This document shows positions 4,372-24,111 of a DNA stretch of 64,000 bases, one piece after another (within the stretch, counting starts at the first letter, position 1; each line of letters starts with the position of its first letter). This DNA comes from Taibaiella koreensis (lineage in GTDB: Bacteria > Bacteroidota > Bacteroidia > Chitinophagales > Chitinophagaceae). The position numbers and the translations under genes are program-made. The notes under the pieces were generated by a model. The model was not told the origin of the DNA. It saw nothing but the letters and a program-made list of their open reading frames with translations, and did not search any database. The DNA is taken from positions 434,001-498,000 of the forward strand of contig NZ_QVNU01000002.1 in assembly GCF_003545715.1 (NCBI RefSeq), given 5' to 3'.

Positions 4372-4457
4372 GCCCTGGTGGTGAAATTGGTAGACACGCG
4401 GGACTTAAAATCCCGTTGCCAGCAATGGCAGTGCGGGTTCAAGTCCCGCCTGGGGCA
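4372..4457 (+). tRNA. tRNA-Leu (UAA), integration target
   Basis: 86-nt class II tRNA with a long variable arm (TTGCCAGCAATGGCAGT). The anticodon loop CTTAAAA gives UAA. Acceptor GCCCTGG pairs with CTGGGGC (two G-U type pairs); CCA is not encoded, since the discriminator A4457 is followed by CAA. The last six bases of the gene are the start of the 17-bp attachment repeat of the island, and the tRNA is kept intact at this end. Confidence 0.96.
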
Positions 4458-5962
4458 CAAACGGGAGTCACACCCGAAATTTGAAGAGGTTTCTCATAGT
4501 CGAGAAGCCTCTTTTCCTTTAACAGCGCGGCTTTCGGCTGAAACATTTCCAAAAGGTAGGGTGTTCTATAGACACCATCCTGATACCTTAAATCCGACTT
4601 GAACACCGCCTTAATGAAAACCTGCTTTTGTGTAATTGTAGCCATATTATAAATGGCCTTAATGTCGGAAAGCTTAGGCAATTGTTCTTCGTACAACTTC
4701 CAATATTCACGCCGATCTTCCTGCAATGTTTCTTTCTCGTATTTCAGGGCGCTTTCACTTCTCTTAAGCTTACCATGCCACTTTTGATATGTTTCCGGGT
4801 TGATGGCATTGTTGATATACTTTTCCTCTAAGCTTTCCAGTTTGTCTGTAACGGAATCCAAATCATAAAGCACGGACGAGAGGCGGACAGATTTAAGCTT
4901 TACTTCTTCTTTCATCTGCCTGTCTGCCGACTGCCGCAGATAATCCAAATACACAGGATCAAGGCTTAAATTATCCAGCAGGTCATCAAATTGTTTATGC
5001 AGCTTAATCGCAGATAAATTGAATTTCAGATGGTCCATGCATTTATAATACCAGTAATAGTTTTTCTTGCCTTTGCTGTTCCCTGCCGTAAGGGATTTGC
5101 CACAGAAACATTTTAGGACACCGCGTAAAGGCACAGCTTCGTTTTGTACCGTATGAGGCTGCTTGATAACGCCCAAGCGCACCTGAATATCCCAGAAATC
5201 CCCTGTGGAAATCAAAGGGTCGTGAATGCCGGGTATTACCTTTTCGGGGGAATACTTATAAGCAGGTACGCGGACAAGGCCAGCATAAACCGGGTTGGTC
5301 AGTACACGGGTGATCGCACTATTTCCCCTTAAAGGAAAACCATTGCTTACGGCATAGTCTGAAATCGCCTTAAGTGGCGCACCCTGTAGGTACATTTCAA
5401 ATACACGGCGGACAACTGGCCCCTTCTCCTTATCAATGATGATAAAGGGTTTGTTGTAAATATCACGGGTATTCAGGTAGCCGGTAGGTGCTTTTGACAC
5501 ATACCGGCCACTGGATAAAGCTTCGTGCATCCCAAACAAAGTACGGTCACGAATAACCCTTAGTTCAAACTCTGCGTTTACAAGCATGTCGGCGCGTTGC
5601 TTGAAATAGAAAGGGCTATCGTAATCAATGCTCATTTGTTCAAAGACAGAAACAATGATGATCCGGTATTTCTTTTCAATCATTTCGATTTTGTTCAGCC
5701 CTGCCGCAGCGTTACGGCTAAAACGGTCGTATTTGATTACGATAAGGTAATCAACATCCCTGTAGGATGTACGCATGAAATCTTCCAGCTTTTGCCATGC
5801 CTTACGGTCAAAATCCTTTGCGGATTTCTCATCGGTAAAAATGCTGTGTAAATGGAGGTTGTGGCGTTCGCAGTATTCACGAATGTATTTTTCCTGACCG
5901 GAAATAGAAAAGTTACTCTGATCCTTATCCGATATACGGATATAGCCAATTGCTTTTTTCAT
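4439..5962 (-). CDS. large serine recombinase (site-specific integrase)
   Basis: 507 residues as integrated. The N-terminal resolvase domain has the catalytic serine S11 in GYIRISDKDQ with R9, and the IVIKYDRFSRN segment. A recombinase domain follows (KAPTGYLNT, AITRVLTNPVYAGLV), then a zinc-ribbon-like CFCGKSL...YYKC and a coiled coil (about 330-440). It should cut at the tRNA-Leu site and exchange strands with the element circle. The gene lies against attL and its last codons (VCAPGGT) run through the attachment core into tRNA-Leu, so the C-terminus is partly host DNA. In the circle the same frame would continue for 28 other residues from 32210 down to 32123. It overlaps the small upstream gene by ATGA. 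Confidence 0.93.
   Translation of the reverse strand: MKKAIGYIRISDKDQSNFSISGQEKYIREYCERHNLHLHSIFTDEKSAKDFDRKAWQKLEDFMRTSYRDVDYLIVIKYDRFSRNAAAGLNKIEMIEKKYRIIIVSVFEQMSIDYDSPFYFKQRADMLVNAEFELRVIRDRTLFGMHEALSSGRYVSKAPTGYLNTRDIYNKPFIIIDKEKGPVVRRVFEMYLQGAPLKAISDYAVSNGFPLRGNSAITRVLTNPVYAGLVRVPAYKYSPEKVIPGIHDPLISTGDFWDIQVRLGVIKQPHTVQNEAVPLRGVLKCFCGKSLTAGNSKGKKNYYWYYKCMDHLKFNLSAIKLHKQFDDLLDNLSLDPVYLDYLRQSADRQMKEEVKLKSVRLSSVLYDLDSVTDKLESLEEKYINNAINPETYQKWHGKLKRSESALKYEKETLQEDRREYWKLYEEQLPKLSDIKAIYNMATITQKQVFIKAVFKSDLRYQDGVYRTPYLLEMFQPKAALLKEKRLLDYEKPLQISGVTPVCAPGGT
4452..4468. repeat. attL core of element 1
   Basis: GGGGCACAAACGGGAGT, identical to 32211-32227. It overlaps the acceptor stem of tRNA-Leu and the last codons of the recombinase gene on the other strand. 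Confidence 0.88.
4484..4515 (+). terminator. element-supplied terminator for tRNA-Leu
   Basis: Stem AAGAGGTTTCTC / GAGAAGCCTCTT with a 6-nt loop, then TT. It starts 27 bp after the tRNA and lies inside the 3' coding end of the recombinase on the opposite strand. It can replace the host terminator displaced by integration. Confidence 0.65.
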
Positions 5963-6102
5963 TGTACGATGTTTTTTACAAAAATTCGTGCCAACAAATC
6001 CAGCAATGCTTTTTCGTCCGGTTTCAGATCGGGGGAAGCTGTACCCCTGTTTCGGGAGAACGAGTGATTATTCTCCTGCTTGTCGTTAGGTATTGTCGGC
6101 AT
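5959..6102 (-). CDS. 47-residue protein coupled to the recombinase
   Basis: A short ORF starting MPTIPNDKQENNHSF and ending LLDLLARIFVKNIVQ. Its TGA overlaps the recombinase ATG (ATGA at 5959-5962), which suggests translational coupling. The N-terminal half is polar; the C-terminal half is a likely amphipathic helix. From memory, small ORFs of this shape often precede recombinases in Bacteroidota elements, perhaps as accessory factors. No function is assigned. Confidence 0.7.
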   Translation of the reverse strand: MPTIPNDKQENNHSFSRNRGTASPDLKPDEKALLDLLARIFVKNIVQ

Positions 6103-6152
6103 GCAAATGTAGAGGCTTTTTAAATATCAAGAAATCATTTTCCTAACCAGCA

Positions 6153-6821
6153 CTAAATTTCCCTGTCTATCTCACCATCTTCCAGCGACAGGCCGGGGTC
6201 AGATGGTGTTATAATATCATCACGGGTCAGGCTGAATCGTGTCACCCGATCATTCCGTGTCAGCTCTTCCTTTGTTGGTTCTTTTCCCGGTGTCGTTTCT
6301 TTGGTTTCCCGCGCTTCAATTTCCTTTTGTCCTGCGGACGGTAAGCTACGTGGGTCACCAAAATAGTTCTCTATCGACTCCCGGTTAATCTCCCTTTCCT
6401 GCCCCAGCTTTTCAGGGAACTTTTTATCAAAGGCTTCATGCGCCCGCTTGGCCCTTTGGTCTTCCGGCAGCTGGCCGAAATCATCCTTGTCGATAATATT
6501 ACGGTAAATGCCACTCTCCTGCCGGTCGGACATATACAAATCATAGTCCTGCCTGCCGGGGTCTTCATAGCCATACTTACAGCCGATTTGCAATGCCCTT
6601 TCCTTAAAGTCAGCATCAATACGACGCATATCAGTTTCAACGCTTACAGACACATTGCGCGAATAGGGTGTATTGGGAATATACTTTGGATATTTCAATG
6701 CGTGATAGGCGTGTATATTATCATGGTATTCCCTCGAAAGGCGCATGTAATCCAGCCAGCTATCAGGGCCGCAGCGTTCCATATACAGTTTCATGAACTC
6801 TGGAACCGGCTTGTCTGCCAT
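6153..6821 (-). CDS. hypothetical protein of the mobilization block
   Basis: 222 residues, not recognised. Soluble and highly charged, with a Pro/Glu/Thr-rich low-complexity tract (about 165-190) and an acidic C-terminus ending EDGEIDREI. No signal peptide or membrane segment. It is the third gene downstream of the coupling ATPase in the same orientation, 40 bp after the 130-residue gene, so it is probably part of the mobilization operon. The position suggests an accessory role in DNA processing, but nothing in the protein shows it. Confidence 0.75.
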   Translation of the reverse strand: MADKPVPEFMKLYMERCGPDSWLDYMRLSREYHDNIHAYHALKYPKYIPNTPYSRNVSVSVETDMRRIDADFKERALQIGCKYGYEDPGRQDYDLYMSDRQESGIYRNIIDKDDFGQLPEDQRAKRAHEAFDKKFPEKLGQEREINRESIENYFGDPRSLPSAGQKEIEARETKETTPGKEPTKEELTRNDRVTRFSLTRDDIITPSDPGLSLEDGEIDREI

Positions 6822-6861
6822 AAAATAGAATTTAGAGTGTTAGTGTATTTCTTTTCTGTTA

Positions 6862-7254
6862 TTAAGAATTCAGGCTTACATCAATGCTGTTGACGATAGG
6901 CCTGTCCGGTTCAATGGCGTTGTACCTACTATCTACACATTGCAGCAGCCGTACCTGTTGGCCCATGATCTTGTTGAATACCGCCGAAAGGTTTATTCCC
7001 GTAAGGGTAGCGCCATGCGTAGTGAATAGCAGTGTTACCTTGTCTTCTTCGGCGATATATTCCCCACTAATTAGGTAAGCATAGTTCAGGAACAGCTTAC
7101 GGCCATCCGGCCAGCCAAAGCAGATGTGCCTCACATTGCCATAGGATGGATAGTAAATATCATCATCCCGAGGACCTGCTTCCGGCTCGTAGCCGGCTGC
7201 CGTTGGCTCGTTCTGCCGCATCTCATCGACTTTCAGGGTAAAGCGTTGCGTCAT
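6862..7254 (-). CDS. hypothetical protein coupled to the relaxase
   Basis: 130 residues, not recognised. The start codon overlaps the relaxase stop (ATGA, 7251-7254), a sign of translational coupling and of matched expression with the relaxase. The middle (IYYPSYGNVRHICFGWPDGRKLFLNYAYLISGEY) and the hydrophobic VTLLFTTHGATLTGI segment suggest a small globular beta-rich domain. No catalytic motif is visible. Confidence 0.8.
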   Translation of the reverse strand: MTQRFTLKVDEMRQNEPTAAGYEPEAGPRDDDIYYPSYGNVRHICFGWPDGRKLFLNYAYLISGEYIAEEDKVTLLFTTHGATLTGINLSAVFNKIMGQQVRLLQCVDSRYNAIEPDRPIVNSIDVSLNS

Positions 7255-10034
7255 AGCGTTGGCTCATAAGGGTCAGGGTAATTGCGTTCCGGTTCTTTCT
7301 GCTTGTCCATAGCCGGAGCAGGTAACACATGTGTTTGCTTTTGCAGGTGATGTACATGGTGGGTATGGTCTGGCTTTTCCACCAGTTCCAGCGCCGAACG
7401 GCGGTCGCCCATATCAGACACATGGGACAACAAGGCAGCTTTGTCATCCGTATAAATGTGGACAGATTCCCGCGCCCGACTGACCGATACATAGAACTGC
7501 TTGGCATCGGTGGCACCGAAGGACGGCGAACCCGCAGCGATAAAGGCAACATCCACAGTCTTGCCCTGTGAGGCATGAGAGGTAATGCAATGCGCATGGG
7601 TAATATGGCCGAAGCCAGTATTGTTGATACTGTATTCCGCATTGCTGATACTGTTGCGCAGCTTGATTTCTCCGTCCCGGCTGATTGAAGTGACCTGATA
7701 GGTCTGGCCGTTGCTTAATCCTTTCCCGGCATTGTCGAAGCCGTTTTTGGTCACACGTAGCTTATCACCTTTGGCAATGGCTATTTCCTTTAACCGGAAT
7801 ACGTCTAAGCGATCACCGGCCTGTGGCGGCATTGGCAAAATTTCCCCACCAGTATTTTGCAGCAATACCGCCTTTTCTGTAGCCTCGGCTATCTTCCATT
7901 TACTGCCACGCGGGAATTGCTTCATGTTCTGGTTGAACTGTACCCACTGGCCGGGCTGGTAGTTGCGCCAGTCGTTCTTTTCCGCAACGGTCAGGTTTTC
8001 ATTGACCAACGACAAAGCCGGGATCTCCTTCTTTCCAATATATCCGGCCTCTTTCAGCTTTTCCCGCACGGCCTTTGTCACATCCTCGCCTTGGGCGTGC
8101 GTAGGCGATATTATCAATGCACTCTTGCCAAGACTAAAAGCCGCCACATAATCAACCACAAGGCTTTCGCTGATATGTTCCGGGGCGACCTCACGGATAG
8201 CGCCCATACCGTCCAGCTTGTCAAAGCTCTCCTTTACCTGCCCTTTGGATAAACCTTCGACCACCTCTTTATAGACCGCATTCTTTTGCCTGTGAATCTG
8301 GCTGACTTCTGCGGTACGGATACCGGCAACAGTATTCAGGACGCGCAGGGCATCGCCACGGCTAACGCTGCTATGCTGGCGCGTATCACCTAAAAGGATA
8401 AGGCGTGCCTGTTTTTCATGAGCCAAACTGATAAGCCCGGTCATATCCTTTGTGCCGAGCAGCCCGGCTTCATCCACGATCAACACCTGCCCTTTCAGTT
8501 TTTCCTGCATGGCTTTATCAGCCAATAGACGGGCAACCGTATCAGCTTTGTCAAAACCTTCCTGCCGCAGCACAGAACGTGAAGCCTGTGCCGTAGGTGC
8601 AACCAGCATGGTTTCCTTGCCAGTCTTGTTGATCTTGGCGACCAGCTCTTTGAGCAGTGTGGTTTTGCCGCTACCCGCCGCACCGCGCACGATAGAAACC
8701 CGGTCTGTATTGGTCAGCAGGTAACGGGTGGCTTCTGCCTGTTGCCCTGTCAACGCCAGATCGGGAGCCTGATGATACAAAGGCACCATCTTACCCCGGC
8801 CAGCTTGTGCAAGGGCAACCATGCGCTTTTCTTCGGCCAGCACTTCCTTTGTCGTGCAGACCATCCGGCCGCGTTCCTCAATACGGATAAGGCGGCTATC
8901 GTTGTGCAGGCAGGTTTCTATGTCAGCCAGTGAAGTGCCTTTCATACCGATGCTATGCAGGTAAGCCCGTTCCAGCAGCTTGCCTTGTTCTACGACCGAA
9001 GCCCGTTCAAAACTATGACCGATTGCAAAGTCTACACATTGTTGCGCTGTAAGGCTCGGCGCGTCATTACGTTCAGGAGCATAACGAATTACAAGGCTGT
9101 TTTTGGCTTGGGTTATTTCCGGTTCCAATACACCCGTAATGCCTACCGCCTCCCTGCCCTTTACATCCAGTTCATGTATCTGCCTGCGCCAGTCCGCTTT
9201 CAGTTCGGCCATGCCCATACCCTTATCTTTAGCCGCACGGGTACGTGCCCCCAAGCCGTCAAGCTGCTTTGCATCAGTGATACCTTTTTCCTGTGCCACC
9301 TTATTGATTGCATTGGTGCGTTTGGAGAACAGGTCGATATATTTCTGATCGACCCCTTCAATCTCGAAGGACTTGCCTGTGCGCCTGATCTGGTACCCGG
9401 CATCAATCAGCTTATCTGAAAGCGTTTTGTAGAACGCGCTTTGGTAAAGCGGCATCTTCCGATTGATCTCTTTAAACTGCGCCGCCCTGATCTGCTGCTC
9501 GGCCTCGTCATAGGTCACGTTGAAAATATACTGGTGGGCGTGCAGGTGTGGGTCAGGAGCAAAGCCCGGTGTCGGTCTGGAAGTTTGGTGGACAATATCC
9601 ACGAACAGCAGCTCCCCGGTCTGTCTATCGAAGTCCTTGCCGCCTTTCCTTACCCTTACCCGCGCATCAGCCTCGACCTGCTGCATGGTGGCGGCCACGC
9701 TCTCGCGGAATGCCTTTAAGATATGATCGTCACCGGACAGAGCATGAAGGATGGAAACAGACTTCGGAACACTGAACACCAGATCATAACCCGTCGTGCG
9801 CACAGAGCTGGTTCGGGGTGTAAGCCGTTCACCCGTTACGGGGTGCTTGTTATCGCAGAGCGCAAAGAACTGTTCCTTAGTGGCCCTTCCAGACAGGCCG
9901 AGGCGGTAGGCCAGTCGGCCACCGAAGTCACCGCCGATCTCAACTTCGTCAAGGTAATAATCCCCCTTGACCAGAGCCTGTGAATAGTAGCTCTTGGCCT
10001 GACCCGAAGATGTGCTTTGTATCATTCTAATCAT
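7251..10034 (-). CDS. MobF-family relaxase-helicase (TrwC/TraI-like)
   Basis: 927 residues. The N-terminal TrwC relaxase domain has a tyrosine pair in AKSYYSQAL and the metal triad HLHAH (H163, H165, H167). A C-terminal RecD-like helicase has Walker A GAAGSGKTT near residue 455 and Walker B VLIVDEAGLLG. MobF enzymes nick oriT, stay bound to the 5' end and unwind the strand for transfer. I chose the start at 10034 (MIRMIQSTSSGQAKSYYS), which matches the short family N-terminus; the longer frame from 10109 would read through an inverted repeat that looks like oriT. It lies downstream of the coupling ATPase and membrane protein and overlaps the next gene by 4 bp. Confidence 0.94.
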   Translation of the reverse strand: MIRMIQSTSSGQAKSYYSQALVKGDYYLDEVEIGGDFGGRLAYRLGLSGRATKEQFFALCDNKHPVTGERLTPRTSSVRTTGYDLVFSVPKSVSILHALSGDDHILKAFRESVAATMQQVEADARVRVRKGGKDFDRQTGELLFVDIVHQTSRPTPGFAPDPHLHAHQYIFNVTYDEAEQQIRAAQFKEINRKMPLYQSAFYKTLSDKLIDAGYQIRRTGKSFEIEGVDQKYIDLFSKRTNAINKVAQEKGITDAKQLDGLGARTRAAKDKGMGMAELKADWRRQIHELDVKGREAVGITGVLEPEITQAKNSLVIRYAPERNDAPSLTAQQCVDFAIGHSFERASVVEQGKLLERAYLHSIGMKGTSLADIETCLHNDSRLIRIEERGRMVCTTKEVLAEEKRMVALAQAGRGKMVPLYHQAPDLALTGQQAEATRYLLTNTDRVSIVRGAAGSGKTTLLKELVAKINKTGKETMLVAPTAQASRSVLRQEGFDKADTVARLLADKAMQEKLKGQVLIVDEAGLLGTKDMTGLISLAHEKQARLILLGDTRQHSSVSRGDALRVLNTVAGIRTAEVSQIHRQKNAVYKEVVEGLSKGQVKESFDKLDGMGAIREVAPEHISESLVVDYVAAFSLGKSALIISPTHAQGEDVTKAVREKLKEAGYIGKKEIPALSLVNENLTVAEKNDWRNYQPGQWVQFNQNMKQFPRGSKWKIAEATEKAVLLQNTGGEILPMPPQAGDRLDVFRLKEIAIAKGDKLRVTKNGFDNAGKGLSNGQTYQVTSISRDGEIKLRNSISNAEYSINNTGFGHITHAHCITSHASQGKTVDVAFIAAGSPSFGATDAKQFYVSVSRARESVHIYTDDKAALLSHVSDMGDRRSALELVEKPDHTHHVHHLQKQTHVLPAPAMDKQKEPERNYPDPYEPTL

Positions 10035-10062
10035 GGGAAAACAGATAATGTGTTTGCTAATG

Positions 10063-10126
10063 ACCGTGGGATAAACCGGCGTTTGTTCATGCCTGTGGAT
10101 GGCGAACAACGCCGGTTATCCACGGT
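10063..10126. other. candidate oriT: long inverted repeat upstream of the relaxase
   Basis: A 26-nt left arm (10063-10088) and a 23-nt right arm (10104-10126) are reverse complements except for three single-base bulges, with a 15-nt loop. It lies 29 bp upstream of the chosen relaxase start, a common place for the origin of MobF systems. The nic site cannot be read from sequence alone. Confidence 0.6.
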
Positions 10127-10183
10127 ATTTAATTTTGACCGAAGAACTGCCCTTTAAAAAAATCTATTGGTTCAGGCATCTTC

Positions 10184-10205
10184 CCGAACGACAGCTGTCG
10201 TTCGG
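10184..10205. repeat. perfect 22-bp palindrome
   Basis: A fully symmetrical sequence with no spacer (half-site CCGAACGACAG), one base from the stop codon of the membrane-protein gene and 58 bp from the candidate oriT. No T-run follows on either strand, so it looks more like a protein-binding site than a terminator. Confidence 0.7.
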
Positions 10206-10206
10206 A

Positions 10207-10980
10207 TTAGGCAACGAGAGCAGCATCGTCATCTTCGTCATCATTGCCGCTAAGCTTGTCGATGCGGTTGTTCAGTTCTTCACGCAGTTCTTTTAAGGAA
10301 GGCTTCTTTGTAAAGCGGGTACGGAAGCCGGTCGATGACGTTTCGTCATGGATGAAGTCACGGGAGAAGTCACGGTTAACGATCATCTCATCGATCATAT
10401 CCAGTACAAACTCATCCCCCTGCTTATAGGCAATATCATAATGCTGGTGGTAGATAATGGCTGTTAATACCAACATACCGCCCATAAGGAATTGTGCCAT
10501 CAGGAGCAGCAGGACACCGGCAGCAAGGATAAGCAGCGGTTCCAACAAGATTTCAATCTTGCGGTAATTGGTGGAATCGTCCGCCTGTTTAACCGACTTA
10601 AAGAACGGGAACACATCACCGGCGGAAAGGCTGTAACGGGAGAAATCGAACTCAGAGGCAGGGCGGCAGGTTTCTTTGTAACGCTTATGGGCGAACCAGA
10701 TAAACAGGCCTGCGAACAGGTACATCGACCAGAAGGACTTCATGGTTTCGCCCCAGTCCTGCCCAGAGGTAAAGTGCAGCACCGTTGGCACCAGCAACAG
10801 TACGACAGCAAGTTTGACCGCGTGGCTAAGGCTAAAATAGCGTTCGCCCATATTGCGGCGCAGGAACACTTCAACCAGCAGCATCGGGTAAGATGAAATG
10901 CTAAGGAAGAAGTCCTGAAGCTTTTCAGTCAATGGGTTTTTGCGGCCTACTACTGTTTTGTAATACAGATGTTTTTTCAT
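10207..10980 (-). CDS. membrane protein of the mobilization block
   Basis: 257 residues, not assigned to a family. Hydrophobic helices near residues 55-70 (VKLAVVLLLVPTVLHF) and 85-97, and a long hydrophobic stretch near 145-175 (LLLILAAGVLLLLMAQFLMGGMLVLTAII), then a charged cytosolic tail ending in an Asp-rich run (NDDEDDDAAL). It lies between the coupling ATPase, which has no membrane helices of its own, and the relaxase. It could supply the membrane anchor for that ATPase; this is inference from position. Confidence 0.8.
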   Translation of the reverse strand: MKKHLYYKTVVGRKNPLTEKLQDFFLSISSYPMLLVEVFLRRNMGERYFSLSHAVKLAVVLLLVPTVLHFTSGQDWGETMKSFWSMYLFAGLFIWFAHKRYKETCRPASEFDFSRYSLSAGDVFPFFKSVKQADDSTNYRKIEILLEPLLILAAGVLLLLMAQFLMGGMLVLTAIIYHQHYDIAYKQGDEFVLDMIDEMIVNRDFSRDFIHDETSSTGFRTRFTKKPSLKELREELNNRIDKLSGNDDEDDDAALVA

Positions 10981-11007
10981 TGTTTTTAAAATTTAAACGG
11001 TTTAGAA

Positions 11008-12495
11008 TTAAGAATTGAATTTTGATGGAGTGAACTTCTGGTCAAATACGATGTAGCGATGCGAGAAGCCATTAGAGAACTTCATGCCTTGAACATGGAT
11101 GTAACCGCTTACTTTGAAATTATTGGAAGGGCCGCCGCCTTTAAGTCCGGCAAACTGTTCCGGCCTGATAGTCTGGGTAAGCTTAGTGGTCTGGGTTAAT
11201 GACTCGCTTACCTTTCCTTGTACCGAACTGGTGGTTTGAGATTGGTCGGTTTCATACGATTGGCCGATCAGCTGCGAGGCCCATGTATTGGTTTCGATAT
11301 CGGTGTTGTACAGGAACAGCTTGGTACCCATCGTGGCAAGGAACCCCTTCACACGGTATTCTGATTTCGCCCCGCCTATATTAGCGTGGTAACCGTTTAA
11401 TGACTGCGATAGGTACAGGGTACATACGCGGCTCGATCTCGCAGTTGCCTGAAATTCAGCGTCTTGTTCATGAATGAACAAATGACTCTCATCGGCGTAC
11501 AGGAATACCGGCATACCGTTCTCGCTGATGTTCCTTTTTTCCATCGCCCGCTGCCAGATATACTTAAACATGATCTGTATATCCTGCCCCACCTTGTGAA
11601 AAAGTTTTACGGGGATATTGAGCAGGATAATCTTACCCTTTGTGTAGCAGTCCTCTGGGGTGACAGTTGTCTTGGTGCAGAACAATGTATAAAAAGGGTC
11701 GCGCAGCAGGTTAATCAGGAAGCTGGTCAGCGACATGGAAATGATCGAACGGGTGCGTTCATTAAGCTTACGGTATTGTTGCGTGAAAAAGTTTTCAACA
11801 ATAGTGTAAGTGCGGGCTTCTGGCACATCTTCAAAAAGCGCTTCATTATACACATCATCGGCAAGGCCATCGAGGAAGCGTTCACCGATGTCACTGCGCC
11901 ATTTGTCGATCTTAGCCTGTATATTATCCTGTGCGGCCGCCATAGCTTTTTCAAAGGCGCTATCCTTCGATTTATCAGGAACAGAATTGGCTATCTCATA
12001 GAGAAGTGGCACCGTAACTTTATTGTAGGCAAACAGGGAAAGGTCGATGCAGGAGGCAATCAGCAGGTTCAGACTTTCTTCCCAGAAGCGGTCGTCAGAT
12101 TTTCCGCCACCCTTCTCATCGCGTGAACGGATGACAACGCGCAGCACTTCAACCAAATTAGCTGTAAAGGTCTTATCGCTGTCACGGGTAGATTCGTATT
12201 CTAAGAAATTGAAATACTCTTTCCCGCCCGGTTCAATCACCACCAAATCCTTACTGCGCCCGGTCAGGCGGCAGTACTCGATGAAGTCGTTCTTATCGGT
12301 TGGTTTTGCAGTAAGTATTAAGCCACCGCAACCTACTGACATTAAGCGACTTAGGAGAAAGAAGCCTGCACCCGTGGTTTTACCACTTCCGGTACTTCCG
12401 AATACCTGACAGCCCATTACCGCGTGGCGGAAGGTATAGGCTGTATTATCTTCCCCACCGAAATTGAACAGCGTGGTTTCCATATCAAATTGCAT
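11008..12495 (-). CDS. VirD4/TraG-like type IV coupling ATPase
   Basis: 495 residues. Walker A GSTGSGKTT lies at residues 33-41 and the Walker B region reads MPVFLYADESHLF, with a TraG/TraD-type C-terminal part (ARSSRVCTLYLSQSLNGY). Coupling proteins link the relaxase-DNA complex to the secretion channel and pump DNA with ATP. Unlike typical VirD4, it has no N-terminal transmembrane region: the nucleotide fold begins almost at once. It is transcribed with the membrane protein and relaxase downstream and starts 7 bp after the 77-residue gene. Confidence 0.9.
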   Translation of the reverse strand: MQFDMETTLFNFGGEDNTAYTFRHAVMGCQVFGSTGSGKTTGAGFFLLSRLMSVGCGGLILTAKPTDKNDFIEYCRLTGRSKDLVVIEPGGKEYFNFLEYESTRDSDKTFTANLVEVLRVVIRSRDEKGGGKSDDRFWEESLNLLIASCIDLSLFAYNKVTVPLLYEIANSVPDKSKDSAFEKAMAAAQDNIQAKIDKWRSDIGERFLDGLADDVYNEALFEDVPEARTYTIVENFFTQQYRKLNERTRSIISMSLTSFLINLLRDPFYTLFCTKTTVTPEDCYTKGKIILLNIPVKLFHKVGQDIQIMFKYIWQRAMEKRNISENGMPVFLYADESHLFIHEQDAEFQATARSSRVCTLYLSQSLNGYHANIGGAKSEYRVKGFLATMGTKLFLYNTDIETNTWASQLIGQSYETDQSQTTSSVQGKVSESLTQTTKLTQTIRPEQFAGLKGGGPSNNFKVSGYIHVQGMKFSNGFSHRYIVFDQKFTPSKFNS

Positions 12496-12501
12496 AGTTG
12501 G

Positions 12502-12735
12502 TTATTTTGGATTGTTAGTGTTGTTGATTTCGTCACTGGTGCAGTCGTTCCAGTAAAAGCGCATCATTGCGTACTGCTCCTGCTCTTTGCGGTAAGCAGT
12601 CGTGCCGATATAGGCATCTTCCATTTGTTGTTCCATATAGGAAAGCTGCGCCCTGATCGCAATAACCTGTGCGGCGATTGCCTGAAAGTTGGCGTTACGT
12701 TCTTCTTCGTAAGCAGTAATTGCGGTGTTGCTCAT
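12502..12735 (-). CDS. small helical protein upstream of the coupling ATPase
   Basis: 77 residues, not recognised. It is almost entirely helical (EEERNANFQAIAAQVIAIRAQLSYMEQQMEDAY), which suggests a short coiled coil. It ends 7 bp before the ATPase start, so the two are probably cotranscribed. A role as a mobilization accessory or DNA-binding factor is possible but not shown by any motif. Confidence 0.7.
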   Translation of the reverse strand: MSNTAITAYEEERNANFQAIAAQVIAIRAQLSYMEQQMEDAYIGTTAYRKEQEQYAMMRFYWNDCTSDEINNTNNPK

Positions 12736-12781
12736 TTCTTTTGTATTTAAAGGGTAAGGAGTACAGCGTAAGCACGGGGGC

Positions 12782-12904
12782 TTACTTCTTTTTCGGTTTT
12801 GGCTTCGGGCGGCAAACGATTGGCGGCTTTATCTTCATAAGATTGCGTTTTACTGATGGGCATACGGCGGCCCTGTACGGCTTCTTATCGAAACCGGTCG
12901 CCAT
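12782..12904 (-). CDS. possible 40-residue basic protein
   Basis: A short ORF (MATGFDKKPYRAAVCPSVKR and a tail PKPKPKKK) fills most of the gap between the 151- and 77-residue genes, in the same direction. It is very basic with two cysteines. The operon position supports it; the short length makes it uncertain. The rest of this 300-bp gap holds an inverted repeat at 12945-12980 (ATAAAGGTG / CACCTTTAT). Confidence 0.35.
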   Translation of the reverse strand: MATGFDKKPYRAAVCPSVKRNLMKIKPPIVCRPKPKPKKK

Positions 12905-13035
12905 TAAATGGCCTGTGATTGTGTAATGATCTTAGGGAGGAATAATAAAGGTGCCAGCGCTGTAAAATTTACACCTTTATCAGTCATTGATAGTTGGCGG
13001 CAAAAGAAGACGCATTAAGCCTGCCGCCAGAGGCA

Positions 13036-13491
13036 TTAATCCAAAATGCTGCTTGGCTTGTCGGTAGTGCCTTTGGCAGCGCGGCGAAGCGCGTCCGCTT
13101 CTTTCTGCGCCTCTATACGCGCTTTGTAGACCTCCCCTGCCATGCGTTGGTGTTCATCCAGCTTGGCGCATTTTTTCAGACGCGCCTCTATAGCAGAGCT
13201 ATCACCACCTTTTCTTGCTTTCATAGCGATGCGAAAGGCAGCACCGAGTTCTGCACAGTAGACCTTGTGGGCTTTGTCTTTGGCCTTTTTATAGTTCTCC
13301 TGTGCTTTGATGCGGCCAGCGTTCCATTGGCGCAACGCCTCTTCCTCGTCGTCTGCGCCTTTATAGGTTTTCCATACCGCTTTAAGCTCAGCGCAGTAGG
13401 CTTTGTACGCAATGTCCTTTGCCATCAGGTAATTCTCTTGCGCGGTGGCGCGATCAGCTTGCCAATTGTTCATTTTTCCATCCATATTCAA
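13036..13491 (-). CDS. helical protein with an internal tandem repeat
   Basis: 151 residues, not recognised. Two copies of a unit of about 45 residues follow each other: W-x-A-x-R-x-x-A-Q-E-N-Y-x-x-A-K-D-x-A-x-K-x-Y-C-A-E-L appears from about residue 10 and again from about residue 55. A third, degenerate helical segment follows (KKCAKLDEHQRMAGEVYKARIEAQKEA). The protein is soluble, lysine-rich and probably all-alpha. It is the first gene of the leftward mobilization block, beside an AT-rich promoter region at 13492-13679. Confidence 0.75.
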   Translation of the reverse strand: MNMDGKMNNWQADRATAQENYLMAKDIAYKAYCAELKAVWKTYKGADDEEEALRQWNAGRIKAQENYKKAKDKAHKVYCAELGAAFRIAMKARKGGDSSAIEARLKKCAKLDEHQRMAGEVYKARIEAQKEADALRRAAKGTTDKPSSILD

Positions 13492-13640
13492 ATATTTATA
13501 GAGTGCAAATTATAGGCACATTTAACCAAAACGAACGCCTGCTCTTCTATAAAATGAAACATAGATTGTTTGAGTGAATAAAATTGAATTAGCTACTTAA
13601 TGAATGTGATTATCAGTAAAATATATGAAATTATTTTTTC

Positions 13641-13648
13641 TAACTTTG
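13641..13648 (+). promoter_or_regulatory. -7 element upstream of the two unknown cargo genes
   Basis: TAACTTTG matches the Bacteroidota -7 box 32 bp before the ATG at 13680. No clear -33 TTG is seen at the expected distance. Confidence 0.4.
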
Positions 13649-13679
13649 TTTCATTAAATGAATTTTTTTTCTTTGTAAA

Positions 13680-14519
13680 ATGCCACGAAATAAAACCACA
13701 ATACAGCTTACAGGTGAAGAACAGGGGTATCTAAATTCCCTTATAGACCTTTATTTCCAGAAATACTCACCAGAACCAAGGATTCCCGCCTTGATAGAGC
13801 AAAGGGCAGCCTATGTTTTTGAGATAGCGAAGGGAACGGGCTTATACAAGTATAAAACACATAAAATGGTTTCGATAGAATCATTATCGAAATTCATAGC
13901 AAGGTTGGAAATTGCGATTGAAAATTTTCCGAATATGAAAGGAGAGATAAATAATATGATTGAGTATTGTAAAAACCTAATCGCAGCTTTTAAAAGTAAA
14001 TCTGATAACACCGGACAGGCGCTTAAAAAGTCGGTTACATCTTATCATTCTCTTTTGGGAGAATACCGCATCTATTACAAAATAGACCACACCGCCCTAG
14101 AAAGTGAGTTAAGGATGGACAGGCTTTTTATAGAAGAAAATACAAAAGGAAAGATTACTGCAAAGTTGCTTCATGAGGTCAATAATGAAATGCAGGTATG
14201 GGAAGGAAATGTACTTGTTAGCGAAACTACACACGCTATATTCATTTCCTTAAGCGGCCCGGCTGGTAAGAATATAAGTTCAATATTTCTAGTTATTAGC
14301 GTTCCTCCAGGGCACATCAAATGGCAAATTACAACAGGCATTTTATCCGGCATTAAGGATTCCTATGATGGGCTTATAGGGTTATTAGTTGTTATTGCAA
14401 AAGGGAAAACTTTTAATGAGAAACAGCATTCTATTAATGGTTTTATTAACACCTACATGGCTTCCAGCTATATAGAATCTCCCACTTATGCAGACATTAT
14501 GAAATATTTATTGACATAG
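13680..14519 (+). CDS. unknown AT-rich cargo protein A
   Basis: 279 residues, not recognised. The N-terminal half is helical and charged (MPRNKTTIQLTGEEQGY; SLSKFIARLEIAIENFPNMK). The C-terminal half has hydrophobic strands (AIFISLSGPAGKNISSIFLVIS; GLIGLLVVIAKGK). No signal peptide and no catalytic motif that I can name. It is AT-rich compared with the mobilization genes, faces the other way, and is followed 53 bp later by a second unknown gene. The pair looks like a separately acquired two-gene module. Confidence 0.8.
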   Translation: MPRNKTTIQLTGEEQGYLNSLIDLYFQKYSPEPRIPALIEQRAAYVFEIAKGTGLYKYKTHKMVSIESLSKFIARLEIAIENFPNMKGEINNMIEYCKNLIAAFKSKSDNTGQALKKSVTSYHSLLGEYRIYYKIDHTALESELRMDRLFIEENTKGKITAKLLHEVNNEMQVWEGNVLVSETTHAIFISLSGPAGKNISSIFLVISVPPGHIKWQITTGILSGIKDSYDGLIGLLVVIAKGKTFNEKQHSINGFINTYMASSYIESPTYADIMKYLLT

Positions 14520-14572
14520 TGCGGAAAATGCCGTACTAATTTTGATTAGCAATTTGATTTAGGGGGGCAACA

Positions 14573-15346
14573 GTGACCAATAGTTCTGCAATTGACAAAC
14601 GATTGGCAATGTACCACGAGCATGTCTCGACTAATTATACTCCTAGCAAAAGAAGCTATATCGTTGAGCGAATGTATAAAGATACCCACAGCAATATTTT
14701 TGATGTCTATAGTAATGAGCAATTTTTGGGCCTCTTAAATACAATGAATTTAATGATTGTCAAAGATGCGCAAAGATTAGATCACGCCGATTGGCGATGC
14801 TTACTCGTTGATAAGTTTCGTAGAACTGGTCACTATATTTCTATTATGAATGTTGTCCTTAACAAAATGATTAAGAATGATAATAAATCAGGGGCAGATA
14901 GCTCTTCGGCAGTAAGCAAATATTTTAAAGAGACAGATAAGTTTATTCAGTCTGTTCATACGGAGTATGAATCAAACCAGAACAGAAAACAAATACTGGA
15001 TTATTTTATGAATTCTGTTCAGGCTATAACTGCCCTCGAAAGCGATCCACGTTGGTCTGAATTACAAAACGTACTTCCATACAGAGGCAATTTCCTCCAT
15101 ATTTCCCAGAAGGTCGGCAAGCATTACGCATCGGTAGCCATTACTCCGGATGATCCAAAAGAAGCGATTGTATTACTTTCAGATAATGATGATCGTTCCA
15201 GACCTCTTTTTAAAGAATACGGCGGTGAAATAAGTGCTGAAACCTATGTTCGTGAGTTCTATGGCAATGACGGTATTTACGCTAAGCACTACCGACAATT
15301 TTTAGATATGAAGGAGAGATACCCTAATCAGGCATGTACGCTCTAG
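14573..15346 (+). CDS. unknown AT-rich cargo protein B
   Basis: 257 residues, not recognised. GTG start at 14573 behind AGGGGGG at good spacing; an ATG at 14609 is the alternative. Mostly helical in the first 150 residues, then a likely alpha/beta part (HYASVAITPDDPKEAIVLLSDNDDRSRPLFKEYGGEIS). Soluble. It follows gene A in the same direction, probably as one transcript, and converges on radC 23 bp away. Position in a cargo slot of an element that carries other defence genes makes an immunity role possible, but nothing in the protein proves it. Confidence 0.8.
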   Translation: MTNSSAIDKRLAMYHEHVSTNYTPSKRSYIVERMYKDTHSNIFDVYSNEQFLGLLNTMNLMIVKDAQRLDHADWRCLLVDKFRRTGHYISIMNVVLNKMIKNDNKSGADSSSAVSKYFKETDKFIQSVHTEYESNQNRKQILDYFMNSVQAITALESDPRWSELQNVLPYRGNFLHISQKVGKHYASVAITPDDPKEAIVLLSDNDDRSRPLFKEYGGEISAETYVREFYGNDGIYAKHYRQFLDMKERYPNQACTL

Positions 15347-15369
15347 ATGTAAAATAAAACGGTTTTTGC

Positions 15370-15843
15370 TTAAGGCATTAGTCCGTCATCTGCGAAAGAC
15401 TTATAGCCCTGTCCTGTAACAATCAAATGATCCACTACACCTATATCTAATAACCTTCCAGCATTAACTACCTTTCGCGTTAGTTCCAGATCGGCCCTGC
15501 TTGGTTCAAGATTACCTGATGGGTGGTTGTGCGCCAGAATAAGCTTGCTGGCCTTACCCTTTAACGCCGTGGCAAATATCAGCTTAGGGTCGGCGATACA
15601 GGAGGTCATGCCCCCTGTACCGATTTCCGCAACACCTAAACATCTGTTGGCATTATTAAGCAGCAATATCTTGAACTGCTCTTGGAGGTCGATTTTGTTC
15701 TCGTCCCAAGACTGCAATAGTATCTGGTAGGCCGTCTTTGAGTCTGACACCCTTGGTCTGTCTGTTGCTTTAATTTTGCTGCGGTAGATCAATTCAACTT
15801 CCGACACCTTGAACTGCTGCAATGTTTCATTAGATACGATCAT
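15370..15843 (-). CDS. RadC-like JAB-domain protein
   Basis: 157 residues covering the RadC/JAB (MPN+) domain without the usual N-terminal helix-hairpin-helix. The metal motif is intact: AHNHPSGNLEPSRAD has the H-x-H and the downstream Asp, and a Glu (GVAEIG) lies in the expected earlier position. Such short RadC proteins are frequent on mobile elements, where their role is unclear. It is cotranscribed with the primase-like gene: the upstream stop and this ATG share one base (TAATG). Confidence 0.9.
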   Translation of the reverse strand: MIVSNETLQQFKVSEVELIYRSKIKATDRPRVSDSKTAYQILLQSWDENKIDLQEQFKILLLNNANRCLGVAEIGTGGMTSCIADPKLIFATALKGKASKLILAHNHPSGNLEPSRADLELTRKVVNAGRLLDIGVVDHLIVTGQGYKSFADDGLMP

Positions 15844-16772
15844 TACTTGCCTTCCGCTATGCTGATAAAATGAGCATTTACATCATATGCTGATATGTAG
15901 CGTCCATTTTGCGGGAAGTGCTTCACATGCTCTTGTGTACTGCACATAAAGGCATAATTCTTCGTAGCCTGTTTCCCGATCTCTCCATTGTCAAACCATG
16001 TACAAATAAAGGCAGGCCCAAAGCTTCGGATATAGTTTGCCGACTGGTCAAGCAGGCGATAATCATGCAGGATAATAACTTCGCTATCGGCGAATAGCTT
16101 TCCATTAATCCGCAGGGCCGTAAGATAGTCGAAGCTGTCCTTGAATACATGGATAAGCTTTGGCTTATCTGCATTTCTAATGTGGCCCGGCTTAGTTTGG
16201 GCATTAGGCTTGATAACCGTAATACCCGGTATACCAATAAAACCGTTGATATGCTGTGACTGCATGGCATAGCCCTCACAGATGGTTTTCATGCCCAGGG
16301 CGTAGACTTCCTTTCTGCCCTTGCCCTTGGCATAGCCGATCTCAACAAAGTGCTTACGGGCCAGTTTCAGCGAAATATAATGCTGTTCCAAGTAGCGTAT
16401 CAACCCTGCACTTGTAACGGGAGCCTTGTACTTGAATAAGATTATATCGTCCGGCGCATCCGGCAGGTCGATACCTTCCAGCATGGAAGGATAACCGATA
16501 TTAGCCTTGAGCCAATCAATAGCATCGACATGGGAACACGGCAGGTCATCCAGCTTCAAATACGCTTTCAGGAAATCAACAGGATTGCCACTGATACCGG
16601 TTTCGCTGTCGAACCATATGTTCAGCTCGGTATTGATATGCAGGGTAAGCCGCTTGTCCTTATGGAATGGTGACGGATAGATGTAAAGCGGGCTTTGTTC
16701 CTGAACGGCGTGCAGGCCAAGTTTAGCCAGAATTGCAGGCATGGGAATTGTATTGGCGTATTCTATGTTCAT
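15843..16772 (-). CDS. primase-like protein (CHC2-like fold plus Toprim-like region)
   Basis: 309 residues. The N-terminal part (YIYPSPFHKDKRLTLHIN...NIWFDSETGISGNPVDFLKAY) follows the CHC2 primase zinc-finger layout but lacks its cysteines, so it probably does not bind zinc. The later part (HVFKDSFDYLTALRINGKLF...VIILHDYRLLDQSANYI...TWFDNGEIGKQA) resembles the Toprim-like region of element-encoded primases in Bacteroidota. It may help replicate the transferred strand, or may be a degenerate relative. It is translationally coupled to radC and follows the excisionase-like gene after 61 bp. Confidence 0.8.
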   Translation of the reverse strand: MNIEYANTIPMPAILAKLGLHAVQEQSPLYIYPSPFHKDKRLTLHINTELNIWFDSETGISGNPVDFLKAYLKLDDLPCSHVDAIDWLKANIGYPSMLEGIDLPDAPDDIILFKYKAPVTSAGLIRYLEQHYISLKLARKHFVEIGYAKGKGRKEVYALGMKTICEGYAMQSQHINGFIGIPGITVIKPNAQTKPGHIRNADKPKLIHVFKDSFDYLTALRINGKLFADSEVIILHDYRLLDQSANYIRSFGPAFICTWFDNGEIGKQATKNYAFMCSTQEHVKHFPQNGRYISAYDVNAHFISIAEGK

Positions 16773-16833
16773 AGAATTTCCTCTCTGAAAATTTGATTTT
16801 ATTGGAATAAAGAAGGAGCGTGGGAGTGCGGTT

Positions 16834-17127
16834 CTATAAGTCCGGGTTTATTTGCAGGTCTGCAAAGCGGTTGATACTGGAAAGGCGATACCGAACCGCA
16901 TTGACATACCGGATAGGCTGTAAGTCATATCGCTTGGTATAATCCCATGTTGCCAGTGTCCCCGGCTCGAAGCCGGTATATGCGGCCGCCTCAACCCTTG
17001 TAAGCAGTGGGTCGAAGCGGCAAGGGCAATGCAGGCAGGCTTGTTTCTCTTTATTGTAATCGCTGGACTGAATAGAACGGTCCAGACGGCTAAGTAATGA
17101 CAGGAGCACTTCTTGTTTATTACGCAT
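16834..17127 (-). CDS. excisionase-like helix-turn-helix protein
   Basis: 97 residues. The central LTRVEAAAYTGFEPGTLATWD is the pattern of the winged helix-turn-helix of excisionase/MerR-like proteins, followed by the wing-like NAVRYRLSSINRFADL. A C-x-x-C-x-C set (ACLHCPCRF) precedes it. It probably binds DNA and could direct excision of the element or control the primase-radC genes downstream. Its name is by pattern only. Confidence 0.75.
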   Translation of the reverse strand: MRNKQEVLLSLLSRLDRSIQSSDYNKEKQACLHCPCRFDPLLTRVEAAAYTGFEPGTLATWDYTKRYDLQPIRYVNAVRYRLSSINRFADLQINPDL

Positions 17128-17353
17128 GAATAACCTTCTTTCCGTAACTAACGAAGTATTGGGGAGGACGGATTACATAGCGCAACACGTGCCATAATGC
17201 TAAGGGTTTCTAATTATGTCTAAGCCAATACATACCCTTAAATGCGAAAAGATGGGAAAGCTATAATTGCGCGTGGATAAAGCAAACGAAAGTAAGGCAA
17301 ACGTACATTCAGCTTTATATAAGTACGCTTGCAACAAGAGGAGAACCGAAGCA

Positions 17354-17539
17354 ATGAAAAACAGCGTTACCGATGAAATGCTGGAACAGGCTTACATCAT
17401 CATGGCAAAGATCATCCGCGATCACGGCGAGAAATATCTGCCGATATTTAATCGCCTGCACCAAGAGCGTGAGGCGCGGAAAGCAAAGCAAGACCTAAAG
17501 GATATTGCTTTACAAATCGCCGGAGATATGCAACGATAA
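17354..17539 (+). CDS. small helical protein upstream of the tyrosine recombinase
   Basis: 61 residues from the ATG at 17354 (MKNSVTDEMLEQAY). A TTG 87 bp further upstream keeps the frame open, but the added residues look unstructured. The protein is helical and charged (REARKAKQDLKDIALQIAGDMQR). Function unknown. It points towards the recombinase gene 250 bp downstream. The gap 17540-17790 holds short inverted repeats (for example GTGACCGTCCCTGTCAC) that may be recombinase binding sites. Confidence 0.55.
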   Translation: MKNSVTDEMLEQAYIIMAKIIRDHGEKYLPIFNRLHQEREARKAKQDLKDIALQIAGDMQR

Positions 17540-17790
17540 TTGTATAATAGCTCGTCACATTTTTTACTTTAAAGTTTGGCACATCAAAATTTACCAAGCA
17601 AAATAAGAAATTGAAAAAGCTGATTTATTGGCGCATCAGGGGTTATATGTGACCGTCCCTGTCACCGCCACCGTTTAGGTTCGATTAGCTTCTATGTCCT
17701 TGTATGCACATAGATATTCTTCCGAAATACCACCTGAACAGAAAAGAATAATAGGTAAGCGTCACATCATTTGTCAGATGAGGCGTTACA

Positions 17791-19074
17791 TTGACCTATC
17801 TTTTATGCCGCAATGGAAACTTTCATTATAACCGTGCTGTTCCTACAATTTACCGCGATCTCGACCCGAGAAAAAACGTCAGGTTCTCCCTAAATACGAC
17901 CAACCGCAAAGAAGCTTTACGCAAAGCGATCATGGCAGATGAACAGGTGGAGGAATACTGGCGAAGCCTTATTTCCAGTTCACAAAAATATGAAGAAGCC
18001 AGTTTTGGCAAAATCGTTCATACGGCCCGCCAAATGGGATTTCGCTATCAACCCATGTCTGCCGTGGTTAACTTACCTCTGCCTGAACTGGTTGACCGCA
18101 TCATGGCGTTACAGGATGGTACAGCGAAACAGGTTGAGGCAGCTTTAGGCAGTAAGGAAGAAAAAGGAATACTTATTTCCGAGGCACAGGAAAAATACTG
18201 GGAACTCGCGCGACACAAAACGATCGATAAGTCTGCTAACCAGATTCGCAAATGGCGCAATCCGCGCATAAAAGCGATCAAAAACTTTATTACTGTTACC
18301 AAAATCAAGGAACTGCAAAAGGTAGGCCGCGATCATACACTAGCCTTTCAGGATTGGTGGATTGACCGTATCGAAAACGAAGGAGTGAAACCAAGCACTG
18401 CAAATAAAGACTTCGTTCACGTAAAAGACTTTCTGAATACAGTTAGCAAGCATTTTAAGCTAGATTTAAAGCTCCAATACCTTTTTGAAGGAATACTGCT
18501 TAAAGAAGATACAGAGCAGACCCGCTTGCCTTTTACTTCCGAACAAATCATTGAAATACTTGAAAGCGATAAGTTTAAAGAGGCTGATCCAGATGTGCGT
18601 TGGCTAGCTACTGCTATGGCGGGAACCGGCTCAAGGAACACCGAGATCATTGGTTTATTACCAGAGGATATTAGGTTACAAAACAAAGTGCCTCATATCG
18701 CAATTATTGGGCGGAAAGGCAAGAAGTTGAAAACAGTCCACAGTAAACGCATTATTCCGCTTACGGGTTACGCCTTAGAAGCTTTTAAAGCAAGACCAGA
18801 AGGCTTTCCCAACCATCGTGAGCATCCTGATTTGTTGACAAATAAAATGAACAGGTTTCTGCGAGAGAATGGATTCTTTCCCACGGAAAACCATTCGGCT
18901 TATTCCTTGCGCCACAGTTTCCAAGACCGGCTTTCGGAAGTGGACGCGCCTGATAGGGTACAGGCCGAGCTTATGGGTCACCGTTTCCCCCGCGAGAAAT
19001 ACGGCAATGGTCCAAGTCTGGAAAAGAAACTAGAATGGATGGAGAAAATATGTTTGAAAAATCCCACAATATAA
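17791..19074 (+). CDS. tyrosine recombinase (phage-integrase family)
   Basis: 427 residues, TTG start at 17791; the family-like N-terminus MTYLLCRNGNFHYNRAVP supports it. An N-terminal arm (DUF6538-like) and SAM-like core-binding domain lead to the catalytic domain: R in GTGSRNTEIIGL, YSLRHSF for the H-x-x-R box with Tyr in place of the first His, H in LMGHRF, and Tyr in EKYGNG. It cuts and joins DNA through the tyrosine. It is a second, unrelated recombinase in the same island and sits directly before the Gabija pair, so this stretch may be a nested insertion. No flanking att repeat was found. Confidence 0.92.
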   Translation: MTYLLCRNGNFHYNRAVPTIYRDLDPRKNVRFSLNTTNRKEALRKAIMADEQVEEYWRSLISSSQKYEEASFGKIVHTARQMGFRYQPMSAVVNLPLPELVDRIMALQDGTAKQVEAALGSKEEKGILISEAQEKYWELARHKTIDKSANQIRKWRNPRIKAIKNFITVTKIKELQKVGRDHTLAFQDWWIDRIENEGVKPSTANKDFVHVKDFLNTVSKHFKLDLKLQYLFEGILLKEDTEQTRLPFTSEQIIEILESDKFKEADPDVRWLATAMAGTGSRNTEIIGLLPEDIRLQNKVPHIAIIGRKGKKLKTVHSKRIIPLTGYALEAFKARPEGFPNHREHPDLLTNKMNRFLRENGFFPTENHSAYSLRHSFQDRLSEVDAPDRVQAELMGHRFPREKYGNGPSLEKKLEWMEKICLKNPTI

Positions 19075-19149
19075 TATGCAATACATCTTTATCTGTTTTA
19101 AGAAATTATATTATACTTTGCAATTATTACTATTAAACCCGGACATGAA

Positions 19150-21153: not shown

Positions 21154-21154
21154 A

Positions 21155-22960: not shown

Positions 22961-23071
22961 CGCTATATGGATTGATATCTATCGTCATAGATAAATTCTC
23001 TTTTTTCCCCAGAAAGCATACTTTCCTACTAAGTGTTATCGCGCATTTTTTACAACTGCGGAGATAATAAA

Positions 23072-23476
23072 ATGATGCTATTGACCGAAGAACATCGAAA
23101 GAAACTTAATGAAAACGGCCAGCCAGAAAACAGGGATAAAGATCATGCACCAGTGGTAAAATTATTCTTGCCCGGCACGGGCTGCACATGGCTGCTAAGT
23201 GAACTGGACTATGAAGACCCGGACATTGCCTTTGGCCTTTGCGATCTTGGAATGGGTTTCCCGGAGCTGGGCACAGTACGGGTTTCCGAATTACAATCGG
23301 TAAAAGCAGGGGGTATTTTCAGCGTAGAACGTGATCTTTACTTTGAAGCTGAATACCCAATGAGCGTTTATGCCTTTGCTGCCAATGCTGCGGATATGAT
23401 TGTAACAGAGGATTCACCTTTGCAAATAGCAGCACAAGAATTAAAGAAAGAAAAGCTACCGCATTTAAAACAGTAA
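23072..23476 (+). CDS. DUF2958 domain protein
   Basis: 134 residues from MMLLTEEHRKKLNENGQ, the usual DUF2958 opening. The core reads PVVKLFLPGTGCTWLLSELDYEDPDIAFGLCDLGMGFPELGTVRVSEL. DUF2958 proteins are common on conjugative and mobilizable elements; their function is not known. The base composition is again like the mobilization genes, so it probably belongs to the element backbone and marks the right side of the int/Gabija insert. A strong terminator follows. Confidence 0.88.
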   Translation: MMLLTEEHRKKLNENGQPENRDKDHAPVVKLFLPGTGCTWLLSELDYEDPDIAFGLCDLGMGFPELGTVRVSELQSVKAGGIFSVERDLYFEAEYPMSVYAFAANAADMIVTEDSPLQIAAQELKKEKLPHLKQ

Positions 23477-23479
23477 CGA

Positions 23480-23510: not shown

Positions 23511-23530
23511 ATTGATCGGTTACCACGAGC

Positions 23531-24106: not shown

Positions 24107-24111
24107 AAGGG

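Follow-up and report, generated by a model that had tools for sequence, protein, structure and literature searches.

We show from sequence comparison that integration of a mobile element in Taibaiella koreensis exchanges a conserved C-terminal tail of the element's integrase for host-encoded residues and leaves all recognised domains of the enzyme in place, and that much of the clade to which the integrase belongs has a conserved hydrophobic tail at this position. The window (the whole analysed stretch of 64,000 nucleotides) contains the following features.

4372..4458, forward strand: tRNA-Leu(taa), the integration target (ARAGORN)
4437..4440, forward strand: GTTC of the T-loop, the attB-type zinc-ribbon motif position in attL (rule as described in PMC3783163)
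4439..5962, reverse strand: large serine integrase (LSR), integrated short form, 507 aa (ORF; Pfam Resolvase PF00239 and Recombinase PF07508)
4452..4468, forward strand: attL copy of the 17-bp core, overlapping the 3' end of the tRNA and the integrase frame
4469..32210: element A, integrative and mobilizable-looking, about 27.8 kb with one core (two cores in the window and a joined site in G001)
7251..10109, reverse strand: TrwC-type relaxase/helicase of element A (Pfam PF08751)
11008..12495, reverse strand: coupling-protein-like ATPase (TraG-D_C) of element A (Pfam PF12696)
32123..32210, reverse strand: C-terminal tail codons of the circular form only, stop TAA included
32188..32206: P arm, a 19-nt inverted repeat, 95% complementary with 32222-32240
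32211..32227, forward strand: right-end copy of the core (A/B junction)
32228..34548 (about): probable element B, in tandem, without an integrase and with one 620-aa ORF (32515-34377); core remnant at 34549, flank as in G003

The integrase frame crosses the 17-bp core (GGGGCACAAACGGGAGT, whose only two copies in the window are at 4452-4468 and 32211-32227) into tRNA-Leu and stops after 507 aa, with the end ...VCAPGGT, of which the last three residues are host-encoded. When the core is joined to position 32210 and below, the frame yields a 532-aa integrase ending ...MQELERILLIVSEIIK; this modelled-circle protein ends ...VCAPHGSVLEHFGDNSMQELERILLIVSEIIK before a stop at 32123-32125, its last residues being EIIK and its final residue K. 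All circular forms discussed here, including the 532-aa integrase of the window element, are modelled from sequence. A sequence-only reading had proposed that the frame runs through the core into tRNA-Leu to a stop at 4439 with the end CAPGGT, that the circularised frame stays open to a TAA at 32123, and that the tail is exchanged for three host-encoded residues (507 versus about 532 aa). These proposals were borne out, the C-terminus differing between the modelled circle and the integrated form. By chance, an open run of 27–28 codons occurs in 16% of shuffled right ends and at 39% of randomly chosen window positions, and the open run in the window alone proves nothing. Because a single open run is so common by chance, the question had to be settled on relatives, and it is the relatives that carry the case.

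The resolvase catalytic and recombinase domains of the window integrase (PF00239 and PF07508) occupy residues 4–262, all upstream of the core. Pfam was run on seven window proteins and PADLOC on six. Residue S11, which we take to be the catalytic serine, is invariant across 16 aligned integrase sequences.

The ends of element A are supported by the tRNA-core-downstream junction of G001, a genome of the same genus (loci L094/L101). There, a tRNA-Gly/tRNA-Leu pair is followed by the core and then by sequence resembling the right flank; the tRNA and core directly abut sequence that matches the window from 32228 (93% over 61 bp), and the empty-site test was positive. The closest by flank among three same-genus genomes is G003 (97%), which carries another flank after the same tRNA, and a G003-like flank in the window sits after a partial core at 34549. 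This partial core and the flank that follows it thus indicate a probable second, integrase-less element B in tandem, and the sequence to the right of 32227 is probably not simply host. In its simplest reading, the locus consists of tRNA-Leu, then element A (27.8 kb), element B (about 2.3 kb) and host, and the integrase of element A may mobilise element B in trans. An unintegrated site, first suggested by the symmetric attP-like site at 32188-32239, was rejected, as the partial core at 34549 makes this site the A/B junction. Element A carries both the relaxase (TrwC) and the coupling protein (TraG-D_C) that characterise integrative mobilizable or conjugative elements.

Serine integrases are described as having a zinc-ribbon motif that is 5 bp nearer the centre in attB than in attP (PMC3783163, in the portion consulted). 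The window shows this LSR attP/attB spacing: GTTC-N3-TCCC in the T-loop of the tRNA has GTTC-N8-TCCC as its right-end counterpart, where the P-arm GTTC at 32191-32194 is displaced outward by 5 bp relative to the T-loop GTTC of attB. In the first 15 sequences, a plain direct-repeat search found a 17-bp core at the RNA gene only in the window and in G257. Since cores are short in most other elements, we turned to the zinc-ribbon spacing rule and took decoy spacings as the control; the spacing score sets the right ends without using the tail. Among 40 elements and 25 scanned spacings, spacing 8 was best in 13, compared to 1.6 expected, and the mean score at spacing 8 was 20.6 compared to 16.0–17.1 at all other spacings. 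This result supports a serine-integrase reaction at the T-loop.

We examined the 78 integrases with DNA in hand, a subset of the search matches, and classed an integrase as RNA-adjacent when the 3' end of a tRNA or tmRNA gene was at most 160 bp from the end of the protein match. RNA-adjacent integrases numbered 65 of 78, and the frame was open to the end of the RNA gene in 65 of 65, compared to 11 of 130 for the other two frames at the same loci (60 bp of the coding match are counted in this stretch). Where the match and the RNA gene are separated by 30 bp or more, the integrase frame was open in 32 of 32 cases and the other frames in 4 of 32 and 5 of 32. The target RNAs were tRNA-Leu, Arg, Asn, Ser, Met, Glu, Val, Asp, Cys, Pro and Ala, plus tmRNA. 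For counts of the frame phase relative to the T-loop the integrases were split by eye into two clades, and the phase was nearly constant within each, one phase being shared by 35 of 36 members of the window's clade and another by 27 of 29 members of a distant clade. Among the 13 integrases left out, L016 lies just beyond the 160-bp limit and reads into its tRNA, and the frames of L012 and L023 stop short of an RNA gene 220–380 bp away.

Right ends were accepted for 17 of 46 sequences, and the joined proteins carry a mostly hydrophobic tail, for example IEHLIPILTFFENIK (G632), FEHLKGILSIVDAIRKQFY (G934) and VESLERFLQFISTIKVA (G414), with a length of 14–29 residues from the E anchor in 16 of the 17. 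Four of the accepted ends rest on direct repeats of 17–18 bp (the window, G257, G870 and G883) and seven more on sites where spacing 8 leads (G073, G632, G848, G837, G934, G1107 and G1112a), narrowly so in G1107 (19.5 to 19.0). Six weaker sites, where spacing 8 does not lead, were accepted partly after the tail had been seen (G017a, G017b, G414, G825, G1105 and G1119, the last with a 42-bp repeat alongside). Two further spacing-8 leaders were not accepted and showed no such tail: G032, with a frame without a stop in the stretch read, and G044, a member of the distant clade whose two best sites are nearly tied. In all, 29 of the 46 sequences yielded no accepted right end. The length of the contig or stretch was limiting in some of them (G032, G092, G418, G258 and L103); in G052, G011, G416 and G395 no right end was found within 90–100 kb; G438, G842 and G1121 have no adjacent RNA gene; and in the other 17 there was no accepted right end in 47–60 kb.

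In a leave-one-out test, the tail scores of the 13 spacing-8 leaders were compared with those of 2,487 decoy GTTC sites. Nine of the 13 reached p < 0.02, and the failures were the window (p = 0.19), G870 (0.99, with the anchor out of frame), G032 (0.40) and G044 (0.22, with the second-best site used). These tests depend on one another, so their combined Fisher value, 1e-13, serves only as an indication. The window segment compared with 32 other tails was equalled by only 9 of 5,000 shuffles; against viral tails alone its shuffle p was 0.21, and against its sister on the tree, G870, 301 of 5,000 shuffles scored as high. The shuffle test against viral tails gave p < 0.05 for 13 of the 17 joined tails, and G870 (p = 0.67), G883 (0.11) and G848 (0.18) were also no better than shuffles. 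The joined tails begin with E-H/P because the search motif demands it; the residues that follow are free of this constraint.

A scan of viral contigs gave 80 loci, of which 28 (L202–L229, at least 27% identity) form the close clade. In 20 of these 28 loci, representing 17 distinct viral integrases, the tail is contiguous with the rest of the gene and no RNA gene lies within 1 kb of the 3' end; one of the 20, L205, is on a contig that ends 56 bp after the gene, so that its surroundings cannot be judged. Ten loci were tested with PHROGs, and five of them (L203, L206, L214, L221 and L224) have phage families on the 3' side. Among the other close-clade loci, L207, L208, L219 and L228 run to the contig end in frames resembling an antisense RNA gene, L229 ends beside tRNA-His, L225 runs off its contig, and L209 and L226 have no such tail. 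The joined and contiguous tails agree, as in FLQFISTIKVA of G414 and FLKFISSIKVA of L224. That homologues should keep a tail was the test set by the sequence-only reading itself, and many of them do, for example the joined G414 (...VESLERFLQFISTIKVA) and the contiguous viral L224 (...IEHLTPFLKFISSIKVA).

The tail codons evolve as protein, judging from dN/dS values of 0.37, 0.23 and 0.25 for G848/G837/G825 (29 codons) and 0.23, 0.18 and 0.10 for L214/L227/L215 (16 codons). In an AlphaFold model of the viral form L202 (pTM 0.41), a helix at 512–521 with pLDDT of about 75–83 forms in the tail and is preceded by a linker at 495–510 with pLDDT below 50. The model, which represents this relative and not the window protein, matches LSR folds (best match the SPbeta integrase 9dxh, E 1.1e-18) and has the long helices, at 338–385 and 391–415, of a coiled-coil LSR.

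The distant clade (e.g., L017–L019, L021, L022 and L024–L030, and the viral L282–L290) likewise reads into tRNA or tmRNA genes. The tail is a feature of the window's clade: the free-looking viral members L283, L287 and L290 of the distant clade are without it, and a like tail was absent in ten loci read from the distant-clade viral scan. Searches of phage and plasmid collections returned relatives only below 60% identity, with the matches listed at 30% or less, and a scan of genome contigs returned one relative, L103, at 45%.

The tails differ in how they end. Compared with the ssrA-like -A(A) end that removal of a tag would predict for the free form, the 17 distinct viral relatives have A as the last residue in 15 and G in 2 (A or G in 17 of 17), often as FAA, FVA or KVA, compared to K in the window and to a background of 16% A and 3.5% G in 200 ORFs. 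The tmRNA tags from the relatives' genomes end AMAA or ALAA. On the tree, the A/G end requires at least 4 changes, so it is not one inherited block; it is nevertheless clustered (shuffled mean 11.3), and a binomial p of 1e-10 therefore overstates the case. The last residues of joined elements with conjugation genes (by Pfam) are K in the window, K in G848, S in G017b, L in G883, Y in G934 and A in G073, and of the two phage-like joined elements G414 ends in A and G870 in V. The idea of a general degron was rejected, as the tails of the relaxase- or TraG-bearing window element, G848, G017b, G883 and G934 do not end in A, though that of G073 does. The sequence-only reading put forward that the tail may switch the enzyme between integration and excision or control its stability; both roles are hypothetical, and a stability role is suggested by the A/G ends in the viral relatives only.

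These observations lead us to propose that element A is specific for tRNA-Leu and carries attP inside its own LSR gene, between the zinc-ribbon/coiled-coil part and the C-terminal tail. The free form would encode the 532-aa integrase with the tail, and insertion would fuse the integrase gene to the antisense strand of the tRNA, three host-encoded residues replacing the tail. The long protein made from the incoming circle presumably performs the attP x attB integration, and the chromosomal copy would yield only the tail-less protein, with the recognised catalytic and DNA-binding parts kept. Less surely, the tail could lower the stability of the integrase in the free state or direct it to another protein contact, and in phage members, with their A/AA end, it may also act as a degron like that of tmRNA. 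How much integrase there is, or how active it is, would thus be tied to the integration state of the element. We consider this explanation as a whole, with attP inside the element's own LSR gene and control of the integrase by integration state through the tail, to be probable. Such control is the best-supported function that we can infer for the tail; in the phages it probably acts through stability, and in the window's element it may act by stability or contact. Because the window tail lacks an A end, a role in contact or activity is for element A just as plausible as a degron. A broader reading, quite possible though short of probable, is that the whole bacterial LSR clade reads its own integration state through the C-terminus: the tail of the circle would limit or redirect the enzyme (in phages by mimicking the tmRNA tag of the host), and the tail would be deleted when the element recombines at a tRNA or tmRNA gene, leaving a stable or excision-ready integrase, with no extra gene involved.

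The conservation of the tail at the protein level, seen in the leave-one-out score and dN/dS, would also suit a suicide-like switch, in which the tail is needed for synapsis or activity, the integrated copy is crippled and excision requires a partner, an RDF or an intact integrase supplied in trans. In archaea, integrases whose own gene contains att are said to be disabled when they integrate (PMC8371274, in part), and the authors of the Dehalococcoides study suggested, in the text accessible to us, that DsiB may reach full function only in the circular form (PMC3146451). However, the recognised domains precede the core, the L202 tail comes after a low-confidence linker, and the distant clade has an equal layout with no tail in three free-looking forms, which makes this alternative rather unlikely, though credible. 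It could also be that the extra residues are a functionless by-product of a compact module in which attP came to lie tight against the int 3' end. A single open run as long as this is common by chance, and the P arm bound by the integrase shares its DNA with the first tail residues, so that part of the conservation (E-H/P) is driven by the DNA and was forced by the motif. We regard such a by-product as improbable, given that conservation extends past the motif with dN/dS of 0.10–0.37 (on few codons), that similar tails occur in contiguous viral genes, and that the tail scores stand out against decoys.

A core of 17 bp inside a tRNA gene is typical of tyrosine integrases, and element A contains a tyrosine recombinase with a Phage_integrase domain (Pfam). 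If this internal enzyme (17794-19074) moved the element, the serine integrase frame over the core would be incidental, and the tRNA sites described in the accessible portion of PMC9262239 agree with the tyrosine-integrase habit. The serine integrase nevertheless abuts attL, as in all 65 RNA-adjacent integrases, the tyrosine recombinase gene is mid-element, and the att sites obey the serine-integrase 5-bp rule, so we see very little room for this explanation.

To our knowledge, an integration-dependent C-terminal swap is not known for SPbeta SprA/YokA, A118 (LI) or Bxb1. These integrases have the same domains and fold as the enzyme proposed here to be switched by its tail, and the same 5-bp attP/attB spacing rule (PMC3783163, in part). 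The closest precedent appears to be DsiB of the Dehalococcoides ssrA islands, as far as the consulted text of PMC3146451 goes: as here, the 3' end of a serine recombinase gene always overlaps attL at an RNA gene, the stop codon lies only outside the island, and the authors raised the idea of a full-length protein on the circle only. The C-termini of DsiB are reported there as divergent, whereas the tail described here is conserved in both joined and contiguous viral forms, and the two systems are likened by layout and not by sequence kinship. Among the open-access literature matches listed, as far as their text was available, no serine integrase was reported to lose a conserved tail when its element integrates.

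The integration-dependent immunity known from mycobacteriophages (PMC9262239, PMC8092301, both in part) shares an attP in a coding gene, the removal of a C-terminal tag by integration in a tRNA gene and, in many cases, ssrA-like -AA ends. There, it is the repressor that is split, and the integrase is a tyrosine enzyme that often has its own tag, whereas here the serine integrase itself is split, the window attP lying inside the integrase gene and not in a repressor. The archaeal suicidal tyrosine integrases of the SSV/pTN3/pT26-2 type, as presented in the sections available of PMC8371274, likewise have att in the integrase gene, which is broken by integration, but they are cut into an N-terminal part and a C-terminal catalytic part. 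The enzyme of element A is a serine integrase with its Pfam domains before the core; the recognised domains stay intact and only the tail is swapped. Self-disrupting integrases are called exclusive to archaea in that review (PMC8371274, in part).

If the proposal holds, the element senses its own integration directly and without a dedicated gene, and self-splitting integrases, called archaea-exclusive in what was available of PMC8371274, would extend to bacterial serine integrases. Where integrases of this clade have been annotated from prophages or integrated elements, their C-terminus would be encoded by the host and the native tail would be missing, a point of importance for the mining of such enzymes as genome-engineering tools. 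With two natural forms of the same protein, the control of serine-integrase directionality would also become testable.

Several minor observations accompany these results. In attL of relatives (e.g., G073, G052 and G418), the element end mirrors the T-stem of the tRNA or tmRNA across the crossover, as judged by eye; in G073 the mirror reads TCCGGTCA-N8-TGACCGGA, and the letters vary with the target RNA. Element B (about 2.3 kb) has attP-like arms on either side. Two chromosomal integrases, G842 (L160) and G1121 (L166), are without an adjacent RNA gene; G842 has a contiguous tail-like end, ILGHLQGIFALLNKN, and may be an unintegrated or rearranged copy. The tyrosine recombinase of element A (17794-19074, forward strand; DUF6538 and Phage_integrase by Pfam) lies mid-element, distant from both ends. 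A Gabija-like defence pair at 19150-22960 on the forward strand forms cargo of element A (PADLOC; GajA, E 4.1e-157; GajB, E 1.4e-196).
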